Source: Sphaerotilus uruguayifluvii (lineage in GTDB: Bacteria > Pseudomonadota > Gammaproteobacteria > Burkholderiales > Burkholderiaceae_C). Taken from it: 64,000 nucleotides of DNA. Positions 50,425 through 55,745 of this stretch are shown piece by piece (the first letter of the stretch is position 1; every line of letters begins with the position of its first letter). A program made the translations under genes and the position numbers. The notes under the pieces were generated by a model, which worked only from the letters and a program-made list of their open reading frames with translations, had not been told where the DNA came from and ran no database searches. The DNA lies in contig NZ_JABSNM010000003.1 in NCBI RefSeq assembly GCF_013294065.1, forward strand, positions 1 through 64,000, in the 5' to 3' direction.

Positions 50425-51023
50425 TCAAGCTGGGGGGAAGCCTGCTGGGCGACGCACGCCTGACCGACTGGCTCGCGCTGGTCGAGCAGCTCGGCGGCGG
50501 GCGGGTGACGCTGGTGTGCGGCGGCGGCACGCTGGCCGACGAGGTGCGCCGGCTGCAGGCGCGCTGGCAGGTCGACGACCTGACCGCGCACAACATGGCG
50601 GTGCTGACGATGGTGCAGAACGCCCACCTGCTGCAGGCGCTGGCGCCGACGCTGCAGCCCGTCGCGCGCGAGGCCGACATCATGCCGACGCTGCGCCGCG
50701 GCGGCGTGGCGCTGTGGATGCCGCTGGACCTGCTGCGCGCCCGCCCCGACCCCGACACCAGCTGGGACGTCACCAGCGACAGCATCGCGCTGGCCCTGGC
50801 CCAGCGCCTGCACGCCGAGCGCCTGGTCGTCGTCAAGTCCTGCGAGATCGACGAGCGCCTGACGCTGGACCAGCTCGGCGACCTCGACATCCTCGACCGC
50901 CGCTTCGCCACCCTCGCCGCCACCGGCAGCGTGCCGATCGACGTGCTGTGCCGGTCGCAGGTGGAGGTGCTCAGGGGGGGGTTGCTGGGGGCGTGCGAGG
51001 GGGGGAGCCGGCGGTACGGATGA
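50415..51023 (+). CDS. MfnE-like amino-acid-kinase-fold kinase (furan phosphate)
   Basis: A 202-residue kinase of the aspartokinase/uridylate kinase fold: MWVIKLGGSLLGD, VTLVCGGGTLADEVRR, WDVTSDSIALALAQRL and RLVVVKSCEIDE. MfnE phosphorylates the aminomethylfuran intermediate to a diphosphate for coupling by MfnF. It ends 46 bp before the first IS fragment, and its natural partner mfnB lies beyond the island at 55777-56490. Confidence 0.82.
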   Translation: MWVIKLGGSLLGDARLTDWLALVEQLGGGRVTLVCGGGTLADEVRRLQARWQVDDLTAHNMAVLTMVQNAHLLQALAPTLQPVAREADIMPTLRRGGVALWMPLDLLRARPDPDTSWDVTSDSIALALAQRLHAERLVVVKSCEIDERLTLDQLGDLDILDRRFATLAATGSVPIDVLCRSQVEVLRGGLLGACEGGSRRYG

Positions 51024-51068
51024 ACGGAGTGGACGTGGTCCGCAAGTGCTTGACGGGGGAGCTTAGGC

Positions 51069-51319
51069 TCGCACTGCTCGTCCGACAGGTTGTACAGCAC
51101 CTGCAGGAACACCATGCGCACCAGCGCCTCGGTAGGGTATGGCGGGCGTCCGCCCTTGCTGCGGTCAGCGCGAGGGCAGGCCTTGTCCACCGCCGCAAAC
51201 ATCGCCGCCAGCGTCTGCACGTAGCCCTCCAGCTTGGCCTTGCGCTGCTGCGCCACGAACAGGTCGTCCGCGGCCTCCTCAGGGAAGAAGCTCGATGGCT
51301 TGATGCGGGGCGTGATCAT
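51069..51319 (-). pseudogene. IS5-type transposase, N-terminal fragment
   Basis: The first 83 residues of a transposase: MITPRIKPSSFF start and KGGRPPYPTEALVRMVFLQVLYNLSDEQCE, the typical DNA-binding/early region of IS5-family transposases. Similarity stops at DEQCE and the frame runs into unrelated sequence toward mfnE. No catalytic DDE residues are present, so it is a dead remnant. Confidence 0.8.
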
Positions 51320-51555: not shown

Positions 51556-53571
51556 CTACAAAGTGCGCGTATCGATCCACTCTACACACGAAGTACGACG
51601 ATCGACCTCAGCCTTGAGATGTGCGGTTCCCCCTGGACCATCGCCGGACTGCCCATCCCATAACGCAATGAAATGCAATTTCTCCGGGCCATGCGCCAAG
51701 GCACTGTCCAGCAACCACAGGTTGCAGCGCTCGTAGGCATTGATCTTCCCTGGAGGATCCCCCAGTTCGACTGGCATGAGTCGGATTGGCAAACCCAAGT
51801 CCGGCTTCAATGCTAGCCATCGATCTCGCCAGCCTTCCTCACCAGGCACATTCAAACTGGGGGCGATCGATTCCTTGACGAATTTCGGCTCATCGAAAGG
51901 CAGCAGGACCTGACAACGCACACCACGTGCACGACAGGCCTCCAAGAAGATGATATCTCCCCCGGCAGCAGCTTGGCTAAAAGCAAGATCCCCTGAACCT
52001 GCACGCCAATGATCCAAGACCGTTGAAATCCGCTCAGCAACCGCAGCAGCCATTTTTGGTGGAAAACGGGGCTTCGCTCGATCATTTCGATCCATCATGT
52101 GCCCAGTGAAGAGAAAAACCCGATCCGACTGCACTGGCGGAACACATTGTTTCAGCTCAGAGTCAAGAATATCCCGTGCGATAGCCACTTCATCCGGTCG
52201 GAACTGGAGTTCCTGCAATAACTGCACAGTCTGAAGTGATGAATCGATGGCAAACCAGTCATGATCAGCCGCCGGAACCGCTTTGCACCAAGCCTTGCGC
52301 ACAATATCCTGATTTTCATGCAGAAGGATGAGTTCAGCACGGGAAGCAAGCGCCCAATAGTCATCCGACTGAGCAGACAACACACTATCGATAGCATACC
52401 GTACGGCGCCGCGCAGATCGGCAAGATCCTGCATTCCTGTCAGCCCTTGATCTATATATTCACTCACTTCGGCCTGTTCGACCAGATGACGATGTAAATA
52501 CATCAGCGTCAGTGCATTTATGCCTGCATAGTGACTGCGCGGATCGATCAGGAAGCCTCGTCGGTAGATCTTAATCGCACGACCCAGAAGTTCAAGTCCA
52601 GCCGTCGCGGTGTCTATCGATGGTGCATTGATATAGCGGCGCCAAGCGGCAAGCCAGCGCATTTTTTCGAGTCGCCCCAGCAAAGCCCAGCTTTCCGCAT
52701 CATCCGGATGCTCCGCGACTAGCTCTTCAGCCTCACTGCGAGCCTCGTCCATCCGGCCCAAGCGTCCGAGACAGACCAGCCTTTTTTGCTTGACTGCCAG
52801 AGCGTCGGGATCGATCTCAAGCGCACGGTCGAACTGTTCCAGTGCCAGCGCGCATTGATCAAGCGCCAGAAGCGCATTCCCTGCGGCGCAGTGGCCTTCC
52901 ACAGCCAAGGCCCTCACGGGAGTCTCATCCGCCAGAACCATTACGTCCCCGGCCAACATCCGGCGGCGCGCCGTTTTCAGCGAATTCATCCAACTGCGAT
53001 ACGTCGCACTGGACTCGTTGTCCGTACCCAGCAGCAGCGATCGCCATTCGGGCGGCCGCAAATGGGGAAGCAACTGGTAGACGGGACTGACCTTGCGACG
53101 GGTCGAACTGTGGCGACTTTCCTTGAGCATTCCGACCAATGCCTCCAGTGTCGCTTTCAACGTGACAAGATCTGGTCCACCATCATCGGCCAGTCCATAT
53201 CTCAGCTTCCGGTCTGTGTAGACGTCGAAGGCCTTCGCGGACTCGCCTGACGGCAGCGCACCGTAGACCAGTACCACCCCGCGGTCCCGCAGTGCGTGCC
53301 GAACACCGAGTTCATACCAGACATTCGGATTGGGAATGGTCAGATCAGCGAGAACCAGATCGGCAGCTAGCAGTTCCTGGAACATATCAGACCGGATATC
53401 ACCGGGGCGCCGCTCCTCATCCGCCCGGAAGGCCTCGAAACCCGCACGCTCCAGCGCAGGTTTCAGCAATTTTTTCCAGACCACATCGAAATCAACCCAA
53501 GTCTTCCCATCGGGCCCAGTCTTTTTTCCGAACGGCATTGCAACAAAAGCATGGGGACGAATCTGTGACAT
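51556..53571 (-). CDS. Large conflict-system-like protein: deoxyribosyltransferase/TIR-like domain, TPRs, SLOG-like C-terminus
   Basis: A 671-residue cytosolic protein. Residues about 5-120 (HAFVAMPFGKK, FRADEERRPGDIRSDMF, ADLVLADLTIPNPNVWYELGVRHAL) have the alpha/beta pattern of nucleoside deoxyribosyltransferase- or TIR-like nucleotide-processing domains. Residues about 215-330 carry TPR-type helices. Residues 485-671 (VFLFTGHMMDR, GSGDLAFSQAAAGGDIIFLEACRARG, PEKLHFIALWDG) resemble a Rossmann-like SLOG/LOG nucleotide-sensing domain. GC is clearly lower than in the flanking genes. It lies 24 bp after the patatin gene on the same strand, so they probably form one operon. Role in defence is inference. 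Confidence 0.78.
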   Translation of the reverse strand: MSQIRPHAFVAMPFGKKTGPDGKTWVDFDVVWKKLLKPALERAGFEAFRADEERRPGDIRSDMFQELLAADLVLADLTIPNPNVWYELGVRHALRDRGVVLVYGALPSGESAKAFDVYTDRKLRYGLADDGGPDLVTLKATLEALVGMLKESRHSSTRRKVSPVYQLLPHLRPPEWRSLLLGTDNESSATYRSWMNSLKTARRRMLAGDVMVLADETPVRALAVEGHCAAGNALLALDQCALALEQFDRALEIDPDALAVKQKRLVCLGRLGRMDEARSEAEELVAEHPDDAESWALLGRLEKMRWLAAWRRYINAPSIDTATAGLELLGRAIKIYRRGFLIDPRSHYAGINALTLMYLHRHLVEQAEVSEYIDQGLTGMQDLADLRGAVRYAIDSVLSAQSDDYWALASRAELILLHENQDIVRKAWCKAVPAADHDWFAIDSSLQTVQLLQELQFRPDEVAIARDILDSELKQCVPPVQSDRVFLFTGHMMDRNDRAKPRFPPKMAAAVAERISTVLDHWRAGSGDLAFSQAAAGGDIIFLEACRARGVRCQVLLPFDEPKFVKESIAPSLNVPGEEGWRDRWLALKPDLGLPIRLMPVELGDPPGKINAYERCNLWLLDSALAHGPEKLHFIALWDGQSGDGPGGTAHLKAEVDRRTSCVEWIDTRTL

Positions 53572-53595: not shown

Positions 53596-54786
53596 TCAAC
53601 CAACGAATCCGCTCAAGTGAGCTGGCAGGACTGACTGTCTGGCATAGGTCTGTCCCACCAGTTGGATCTGCTCGATGAATTCCACCGAGTCGAGTGCCTG
53701 CACCTGTTCAGGGAGAACCTTGTTTTTCAATCCCATGCGGTCCAGACCTGTCGCGCTGACATCCGGATCGTAGCGCAGATAGGTGAAGAGCTTCGGCACG
53801 GTACTGGTTGGAGCCCCAATGACATCTGCGGTCATTGTCTTGACCTCCCGGTCGATTTCACCGCCAAACCGGCAATTCCCCAATGTGCGGCAGGCCATGT
53901 CCCACCCGGCACTGGCAGCGTTCATCAGTGCACCCGGAACGTTTTTCGCGTTGTCCAGCAACCACATATCCTTGGGTTCCAGATCCGGTCGCGCTTTCGC
54001 CGCGCTGCCTGTCCCCACGGAGACAATCAGCATCTTGTCTTCACCCGTGGCCCAGTTCATGTTGTAAGGTTTTGCCGTAGCCATTTGGAATGCCAGAAAG
54101 GCCGGATTGTTGTAGGTAGTCACACCTCCGTCGACGAAGATGAACTTGTACTCCTGAGGCTGACCTGGGCAGAAAGTGACGATCTCGGGTGGGAAATAGG
54201 TGGGAGCAGCCGTGCTGGCTCGCACAAGTTGCCACAGTGGTAGTTTCAGGTTGCAGTCTGGTCGAAGCCGCTCGTTGTAGTGTGCATCAGGATTGTTGGT
54301 AATCGGCCAAGGTGAATCCGTGCTGTGATTGCGCAGCACCATCATCAACAAGGTGCGCAGACGCGGATCTCCGAGTTTTTCTGCCATCTCGGGATCCGGG
54401 CAAGGCCCCTGCTTATTTAGTGCCTTAGCCAGTTCGTCTTTCAGTTTGAGGGCCAAGGGCTCGGCCTTGTAGTCGTAGTGCAATCGGTTCAACAGTCCGG
54501 CCTTGGTGAACATATCCCGGCCACTGTCGACATAGAAGCGGCGGATCTGTTCGGTGCTCATGCCCGCGGAAATGCAGGCAGCCACGATGGCGCCCGTGCT
54601 CGTGCCGCAAACAAAGTCGAACCAGTCACCCAAAACCAGATCAGGCTTTTGAGTGAGCGTCCGCAACTCGGTTTCAATCTGCGTCAATATTTCAACGCTG
54701 ATCAAGCCGAGAATACCTCCACCATCACAGGCGAGGATGCGCTTTGAAAACTTCTCCGGGCGAACCGAAAAATTACATTCAGACAT
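53596..54786 (-). CDS. Patatin-like phospholipase (CapV-like effector candidate)
   Basis: A 396-residue patatin. Oxyanion loop CDGGGILGL (residues 20-28), nucleophile Ser63 in GTSTG, and catalytic Asp219 in VDGGV; ASTAAPTYFPP is the usual conserved block. It should hydrolyse membrane phospholipids. Similar patatins act as killing effectors in CBASS-type defence, but no nucleotide cyclase gene is present here. GAGG precedes the ATG. GC is low. It is the first gene of a two-gene unit with the TPR/SLOG-like protein and is divergent from the TIR gene. Confidence 0.85.
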   Translation of the reverse strand: MSECNFSVRPEKFSKRILACDGGGILGLISVEILTQIETELRTLTQKPDLVLGDWFDFVCGTSTGAIVAACISAGMSTEQIRRFYVDSGRDMFTKAGLLNRLHYDYKAEPLALKLKDELAKALNKQGPCPDPEMAEKLGDPRLRTLLMMVLRNHSTDSPWPITNNPDAHYNERLRPDCNLKLPLWQLVRASTAAPTYFPPEIVTFCPGQPQEYKFIFVDGGVTTYNNPAFLAFQMATAKPYNMNWATGEDKMLIVSVGTGSAAKARPDLEPKDMWLLDNAKNVPGALMNAASAGWDMACRTLGNCRFGGEIDREVKTMTADVIGAPTSTVPKLFTYLRYDPDVSATGLDRMGLKNKVLPEQVQALDSVEFIEQIQLVGQTYARQSVLPAHLSGFVG

Positions 54787-54972: not shown

Positions 54973-55745
54973 ATGCTAACCATGTCGAAGATATTTATCT
55001 GTCACGCATCAGAGGACAAAGAAATTGCAGATGCAATTCATCTCGCACTCAAATCAGATGAACACGATGTATTTTTTGATGACACATCTTTAAAAGAGAC
55101 CGCGGACTACAACAACAAAATAATATCAGCAATCAAGGGGTGCGATCTGTTTATATTTCTAATATCAAAAAACTCCATAAGAAAGGGAAAGTATGCACTG
55201 AGCGAGCTGAAAATAGCACAAAAAAAATGGGGGCGCCTAATCATCATGTTCTACCAATAAATATAGACAACACGCCTCTGGAATCAATCCCACCATATCT
55301 AAAAGCAACCACCATACTCAACCCAATAGGAGACATTGTAATTGAAACAAAAGTAGCGGCAAGCAATCTACTTAAAGGTGGTCGAGCAATAAAAAACATT
55401 GCGAAAATAGCTTTTATTGCCACGGCCGCCACGGCCGCCACGGCCGCAACATATTTTGCAAACATCAGTGAGATCGAATATAGATTACTTGGCTGCAAGT
55501 TTGGCGGTCGCGTCGGTCAAGTGGAAATAGTCAACAACTCCTTATACCCCTTAGAAATAAAATACTACCACCCAAACAACTACAAAGAGTACATTAGGTT
55601 TTTTGTCAATGGACAATCCAGCCACACCGAACAGTTTAATGTCGGAGAAGACTGGGGAATAAAAATAGGGAGCAGGCGTGTTCAATGCCTAGCAACCGCA
55701 TCCGAGTGGAAAGACAAAAAATTTATTGTATTCACAGACAAATAA
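54973..55745 (+). pseudogene. TIR-domain membrane protein, split by a frameshift
   Basis: An AT-rich gene in two frames. The first part (54973-55260) is a TIR domain: KIFICHASEDKEIADAIH, VFFDDTSLK, DLFIFLISKNSIRKG and YALSEL, ending soon after KKWG. The second part continues in the -1 frame from about 55229 with APNHHVLPINIDNTPLESIPPYL, exactly the usual TIR continuation, then a hydrophobic helix (about IAKIAFIATAATAATAATYF) and a beta-rich domain. The shift falls at AAAAAAAATGGGGG (55220-55233). It may be a real mutation, a sequencing error, or programmed/slippage decoding. If joined it makes about 256 residues: TIR, membrane segment, and an unknown beta domain. An ATG at 54982 is an alternative start. 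Confidence 0.72.
55419..55445 (+). repeat. Three 9-bp tandem repeats in the TIR gene
   Basis: Three copies of GCCACGGCC encode ATA repeats in the predicted membrane helix. They are GC-rich within a very AT-rich gene. Confidence 0.75.

Follow-up and report, generated by a model that had tools for sequence, protein, structure and literature searches.

A protein joining a predicted DrHyd/TIR-type fold, TPR-S and a SLOG fold beside a patatin-like phospholipase gene in Sphaerotilus uruguayifluvii: a candidate immune module

The window, meaning the whole stretch of 64,000 nucleotides analysed here, holds an island at about 51.0–55.75 kb, between a gene of the amino-acid-kinase family and the 4-HFC-P synthase gene. 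Within the island, the gene for the protein P0001 is preceded on the same strand by a patatin gene that stops 24 bp upstream of the P0001 start, and a transposase remnant adjoins the end of the kinase-family gene. The features are as follows.

51020..51319 (left limit approximate), minus strand: truncated remnant of an insertion-sequence transposase at the island edge (DUF772, 4.1e-07)
51556..53571, minus strand: P0001, DrHyd/TIR-fold + TPR-S + SLOG protein, 671 aa
51559..52128, minus strand: P0001 tail, residues 482–671, predicted SLOG fold (AlphaFold2 and fold matches; no Pfam match above cut-off)
52189..52611, minus strand: MAP3K_TRAF_bd (PF13281), residues 321–461 (1.8e-08; score 34.2 against a cut-off of 24.1)
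52501..52851, minus strand: TPR-S (PF20308), residues 241–357 (Pfam, 1.8e-18)
53107..53571, minus strand: P0001 head, residues 1 to about 155, predicted Rossmannoid fold of the deoxyribosyltransferase/DNPH1/TIR type (AlphaFold2, fold matches, profile alignment and conservation)
53596..54786, minus strand: patatin-like phospholipase, 396 aa (Pfam, 6.2e-23; GTSTG and DGG motifs)
54973..55745, plus strand: divergent TIR gene in two frames, with a break near 55220–55260 (TIR_2, 5e-15)

The P0001 frame is a genuine open frame that starts from ATG. Some match to P0001 at E ≤ 1e-10 was observed in 38 of 399 genomes of the order, and full-length relatives were observed in 14 of the 399 with the window included, the 13 further ones being 44–52% identical to P0001. 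A scan of a species-genome collection, in which WYELGVRH was used as pattern, returned 194 relatives. Out of these 80 were kept, and 78 of them match P0001 over essentially the whole query. P0001 was accordingly taken to be a real gene on account of both the full-length relatives in the order and the 194 in the species-genome collection. Judged by record titles, the 80 relatives stem mostly from beta- and gammaproteobacteria, and also from Nitrospira, cyanobacteria and others. No second match at E ≤ 0.001 was found in the 4.9-Mb genome. None of the 22 pattern matches in a viral collection encodes a P0001 relative, and of the 59 plasmid records that match P0001 in part none covers 80% of the protein.

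The flanks of the island were compared in eight fetched relatives, seven of the genus and one of the family. The kinase-family and synthase genes were present and convergent in seven of the eight, at a distance (between match ends) of about 60–230 bp in six and of about 1.9 kb in one, and no synthase was found within the 10-kb stretch of the eighth, which is the one of the family. As the flanks adjoin in relatives and a transposase remnant is present, we infer that the island was inserted, as expected of accessory defence cargo. Counting that of the window, three of 13 genus genomes have a full-length copy, and the other two copies lie away from the window's site, which suits a mobile accessory module. 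The first frame of the divergent TIR gene stops at 55260 and a likely continuation is read in another frame from about 55220. This break lies beside A and G runs and may represent a broken gene, a sequencing error or a slippage switch; the second frame had no match in plasmids. Membership of the TIR gene in the P0001–patatin system is uncertain.

The middle of P0001 had been read as tetratricopeptide repeats in the initial annotation, and this reading was confirmed as both TPR-S, at 67.4 bits against a cut-off of 27.6, and MAP3K_TRAF_bd were found above their cut-offs. TPR-S stands for tetratricopeptide repeats-sensor, and Burroughs and Aravind (2020, J Bacteriol) reportedly proposed it as a sensor of NAD-derived signals. 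At E ≤ 0.001 the genome has no TPR-S match besides P0001.

The head and tail were modelled with AlphaFold2 from 39 sequences, namely that of the window and 38 of the 80 relatives. The model of residues 1–175 was of middling confidence (pLDDT 79.9) and matched DNPH1 (Z 13.8, rmsd 2.5, 128 aligned), nucleoside deoxyribosyltransferase (Z 12.5, rmsd 3.2, 128 aligned) and MilB (Z 12.4), with TIR domains (Z up to 12.4) close behind the deoxyribosyltransferase. Matches of the head structure to receiver domains were rated a common arrangement, and the best hit of a profile search with the head against PDB sequences (E 0.37) was rated chance. In terms of sequence families, two of the 39 members match PF05014 at E ≤ 1 (best 0.0085) without reaching its cut-off, the window head not being among them. 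For TIR PF13676, matches at E ≤ 1 were obtained for 18 of the 39 (best 0.0035), and the window head scored 12.3 against a cut-off of 28 bits. PADLOC models matched P0001 weakly only (5.3e-05 and 0.0019), the latter match being that of a TIR effector model to residues 23–91.

When the head was compared by profile with nine PF05014 proteins of the order, its Glu87 fell on the invariant Glu of the deoxyribosyltransferase E-x-G motif (pairwise E 3.4e-05, probability 72). Glu87 is retained in all 14 relatives that were found without the pattern, the window included, and in all eight distant heads; for the 80 loci, the scan pattern WYELGVRH in part presupposes that Glu87 and the residues around it are conserved. 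The strand 1 active-site tyrosine that is a criterion for nucleoside 2-deoxyribosyltransferases and DNPH1 is absent from the P0001 head, which has Phe9 instead. Phe9 was placed at Tyr24 of human DNPH1 and Tyr7 of the Chroococcidiopsis enzyme from the first aligned residues of several fold-match rows, the tyrosine numbers being those in PDB titles and the equivalence being an offset and not a residue-by-residue alignment. Phe9 is found in 78 of the 80 relatives, with gaps in the other two, and seven of the eight distant heads likewise have Phe at this place, the exception being L056 with Tyr. According to PMC11204291, TIR domains usually have Phe or Ala where deoxyribosyltransferases have the tyrosine. 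By way of the offset the exchange of Tyr for Phe leans towards NAD-like over deoxynucleotide chemistry, and Phe9 hints at TIR/NAD-like chemistry of the predicted head.

The model of the tail (residues 476–671) had a pLDDT of 91.4 and a pTM of 0.90. Its closest match was YpsA (Z 14.9, rmsd 3.6, 158 aligned), followed by DprA (Z 11.1), ShosA (10.7), LOG (8.8) and TRPM channels (8.2 and below), and at the level of the predicted fold the tail is securely a SLOG domain. Foldseek rows for sugar isomerases (SIS-type), with E from about 2e-03, were rated a common arrangement, the top rows being SLOG, and the best PDB sequence in a profile search with the tail (E 0.14) was rated chance. No Pfam family, SLOG families included, reaches its cut-off in the tail. 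The SLOG family YAcAr was weakly matched by the tails of four of the 39 members and, below cut-off, by separate SLOG copies in L048 (2.5e-4) and L050 (0.0094). Conservation in the tail is extensive in that all 80 relatives have His491, Asp494, Arg498, Arg502, Gly537 and Asp539 and 79 have Gly538, Gly647, Gly648 and Thr649, and 13 SLOG versions, be they fused, separate or cyclase-linked, show no variation at the GH, D, R, RF, G-D and GG positions. The motif of LOG phosphoribohydrolases is PGGxGTxxE. It is absent from the tail, where the sequence reads DGPGGTAHLKAE, and a binding role for the tail would on this ground be more likely than the LOG reaction. The results point to a SLOG group that has no Pfam match above cut-off and is common to P0001-type proteins and TPR-S cyclases. 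In another setting, a SLOG-like domain is fused to a glycosyl hydrolase 108 and a peptidoglycan-binding domain (L052:316-1731, minus strand), and its divergent neighbour is a TIR-like gene that reaches the end of the contig and codes for at least 872 aa.

Both ends of P0001 had previously been called nucleotide-handling folds by eye on the basis of short motifs, all of which are present in P0001, and the predicted structures bear this call out (head to DNPH1, Z 13.8; tail to YpsA, Z 14.9). Separate profile and structure searches of the two ends had been suggested along with a check of active-site conservation. The structures do match nucleotide folds, but no family cut-off was reached by sequence, and conserved residues such as Glu87 of the head are present at both ends. 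The failure of either end to reach a curated sequence cut-off would also follow if both were degenerate, the head and the SLOG tail serving as scaffolding that neither catalyzes nor binds. We regard this as very improbable as Glu87 is kept in 14 of 14 pattern-free relatives and 8 of 8 distant heads, and the SLOG GH/D/R/G-D/GG residues are kept whether the domain is fused, separate or cyclase-linked.

The adjacent patatin gene, absent from the initial annotation of P0001, is the strongest clue to the role of the protein. Its product matched the PADLOC model 'Effector, Phospholipase' at 1.2e-39 and NCBIfam CBASS_lipase at 4.5e-29, which is under the cut-off of that model. A patatin gene adjoins the full-length gene in at least six of the 14 relatives of the order (window included), and of the 80 relatives 24 have one no more than 150 bp away on the same strand and 32 have one within 5 kb when both strands are counted. 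Other effector types within 5 kb were CHAT proteins (24 of 80; the one scanned also matched TPR-S), caspases (16), the TIR/STAND (TIR/nSTAND) type (11, of which 8 on the same strand) and SLATT (4). In total, 57 of the 80 relatives have at least one of these five types within 5 kb on the same strand, as do 43 of the 62 that remain after dropping relatives at least 85% identical, and in 22 of the 80 patatin is the only one of the five. None of the five was found within these limits in 23 relatives, for 13 of which the sequence extends 5 kb or more to either side. These counts were made with a simple open-frame finder, on account of which very short or frameshifted neighbours may be missed, and with one TIR/STAND profile, so that TIR genes outside the profile, such as that 84 bp upstream in L063, are uncounted. 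Of the two other full-length relatives in the genus, L197 has none of the tested effectors in its 15-kb stretch, and around L198 only a caspase at a distance of about 3.5 kb and a partial match to CHAT were found. The distances among patatins and among TPR-S proteins correlate over 24 pairs, the window and 23 others (r 0.42, reached in 0 of 5000 permutations), a modest value in which shared species descent may still be contained. Two further proteins were observed near such genes. One, of 1956 aa (L099:10931-16801, plus strand), has DUF7379, CHAT and TPR-S matches with LCAT just under cut-off, and 24 of the 80 full-length genes have a relative of it within 5 kb. The other, of 568 aa (L038:5409-7115, plus strand), has a similar head at its C-terminus, adjoins a patatin and TPR-S pair and has no Pfam match at E ≤ 0.001.

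Taken together, P0001 and the patatin probably form an immune module of two genes in a putative operon, one of the TPR-S class and the abortive-infection type, with P0001 as its control protein. In the resting cell, fused P0001 would hold the neighbouring patatin phospholipase inactive, probably by means of TPR-S contacts. Infection would disturb nucleotide or NAD pools, upon which the SLOG tail would bind a nucleotide-type ligand. The head would be an N-glycosidase of the TIR/deoxyribosyltransferase fold that uses Glu87 to act on an NAD-like or nucleotide substrate, and this processing would either make the ligand or be a second toxic activity. The TPR-S scaffold would then relay the change to patatin, which would cut membrane lipids so that the cell stops or dies. 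It had been suggested earlier that a single chain might both make and sense a signal. In that case the head would be a messenger-making enzyme (through Glu87), the SLOG tail the receptor and TPR-S the transducer to an exchangeable effector, resulting in a cis-acting, self-contained pathway resembling Thoeris with no signal diffusing between proteins; we hold this more specific version to be rather unlikely.

An equally doubtful reading assigns the killing to P0001 itself. The head would be an NADase or nucleotide N-glycosidase with the SLOG tail as its sensor, patatin would be a second, parallel effector, and the signal would be made elsewhere, for instance by a TIR protein, and not by P0001. 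In agreement with this, a TIR gene lies beside the pair in the window, 11 of the 80 relatives have a TIR/STAND type no more than 5 kb away, and the head has Phe9 in place of the deoxyribosyltransferase tyrosine, where TIR domains usually have Phe or Ala; SLOG domains of ThsA moreover bind 3'cADPR made by TIR proteins, according to PMC11204291. The TIR gene of the window is, however, frame-broken and divergent, and 22 of the 80 have a patatin and no other of the five effector types on the same strand inside 5 kb.

For P0001 as the control protein of the patatin, the parts of the pair are also informative where they are arranged differently. L050 encodes SLOG alone, patatin and head + TPR-S in three successive genes of the same strand. 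The row on a Rhizobium plasmid (L186) runs from SLOG alone through a head gene that matches P0001 residues 6–218, a short open frame, SLATT and a muramidase to patatin, and in L049 a head + TPR gene is followed by a fusion of TPR-S with patatin. That the same parts are found fused or separate argues for the parts acting together. A second architecture with the same SLOG group is TPR-S + SLOG + cyclase. L054, L057 and L058 have TPR-S + SLOG joined to an adenylate/guanylate cyclase domain that scores above cut-off; the cyclase match of L059 falls just short of its cut-off, and L053 has SLOG + cyclase without a TPR-S match. These fusions could reflect a broader signalling role and count against the immune module, as do the 23 relatives with none of the five effector types, the neighbourhoods of L197 and L198, the outcome of the viral and plasmid searches, the weak PADLOC matches and the modest r. 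The fusions would also fit a general stress- or metabolite-sensing regulator with no part in immunity, in which SLOG would respond to a metabolite and TPR-S would govern lipid turnover or the production of cyclic nucleotides. Such a regulator is nevertheless improbable as conflict-type effectors come and go next to the full-length gene and as full-length copies are present in only 3 of the 13 genus genomes, two of them off-site. If the immune reading of P0001 and patatin is true, the module has its enzyme and sensor fused, and the same control protein is employed beside phospholipase, caspase, CHAT or TIR/STAND effectors.

Compared to known systems, the P0001 tail shares its fold with the SLOG superfamily (YpsA, DprA, LOG and TRPM; Z 14.9 to YpsA over 158 residues) but differs in having no Pfam SLOG family above cut-off and no LOG motif. 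Similarly, the head shares the fold (Z 12.5–13.8) and the motif Glu of nucleoside 2-deoxyribosyltransferases and DNPH1 (DrHyd), whereas it stays below the PF05014 cut-off and has Phe9 in place of the active-site tyrosine. MAP3K_TRAF_bd links to the regulatory region of animal ASK1 (MAP3K), on the origin of which TPR-S proteins are said to bear. This domain is shared by P0001 above cut-off, while P0001 differs from ASK1 in that it has no kinase match and is encoded by a bacterial gene beside a phospholipase. CBASS with a CapV-type phospholipase was considered because the window patatin is CapV-like, resembling the CBASS phospholipase model (below cut-off) and PADLOC effector models. It was set aside as SMODS PF18144, the sole CD-NTase family searched, had no match in the genome, with matches in 3 of 14 control genomes. 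With Thoeris, composed of the TIR protein ThsB and the SIR2-SLOG protein ThsA, P0001 has in common an enzyme of TIR-like fold and a SLOG domain, and the active site in one subfamily of ThsB is similar to that of deoxyribosyltransferases (PMC11204291). P0001 differs from Thoeris in that the head and SLOG share a chain with TPR-S, no SIR2 match is present and the partner is a phospholipase; neither a ThsA SIR2-SLOG nor a TM-macro effector was found among the four window proteins scanned. Literature searches, with Burroughs and Aravind 2020 outside the comparison, returned no paper on a chain that joins a DrHyd/TIR-fold head, TPR-S and SLOG. PMC9503650 places TIR, DrHyd and SLOG together in a class whose members may bind nucleotides or process them. 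Like TPR-S conflict systems, P0001 has TPR-S above the curated cut-off and neighbours of the conflict type, and it differs from them in that the DrHyd/TIR-fold head and SLOG tail flank TPR-S in one chain. P0001 with its patatin would be a variant within TPR-S-type immune modules and not a separate class.
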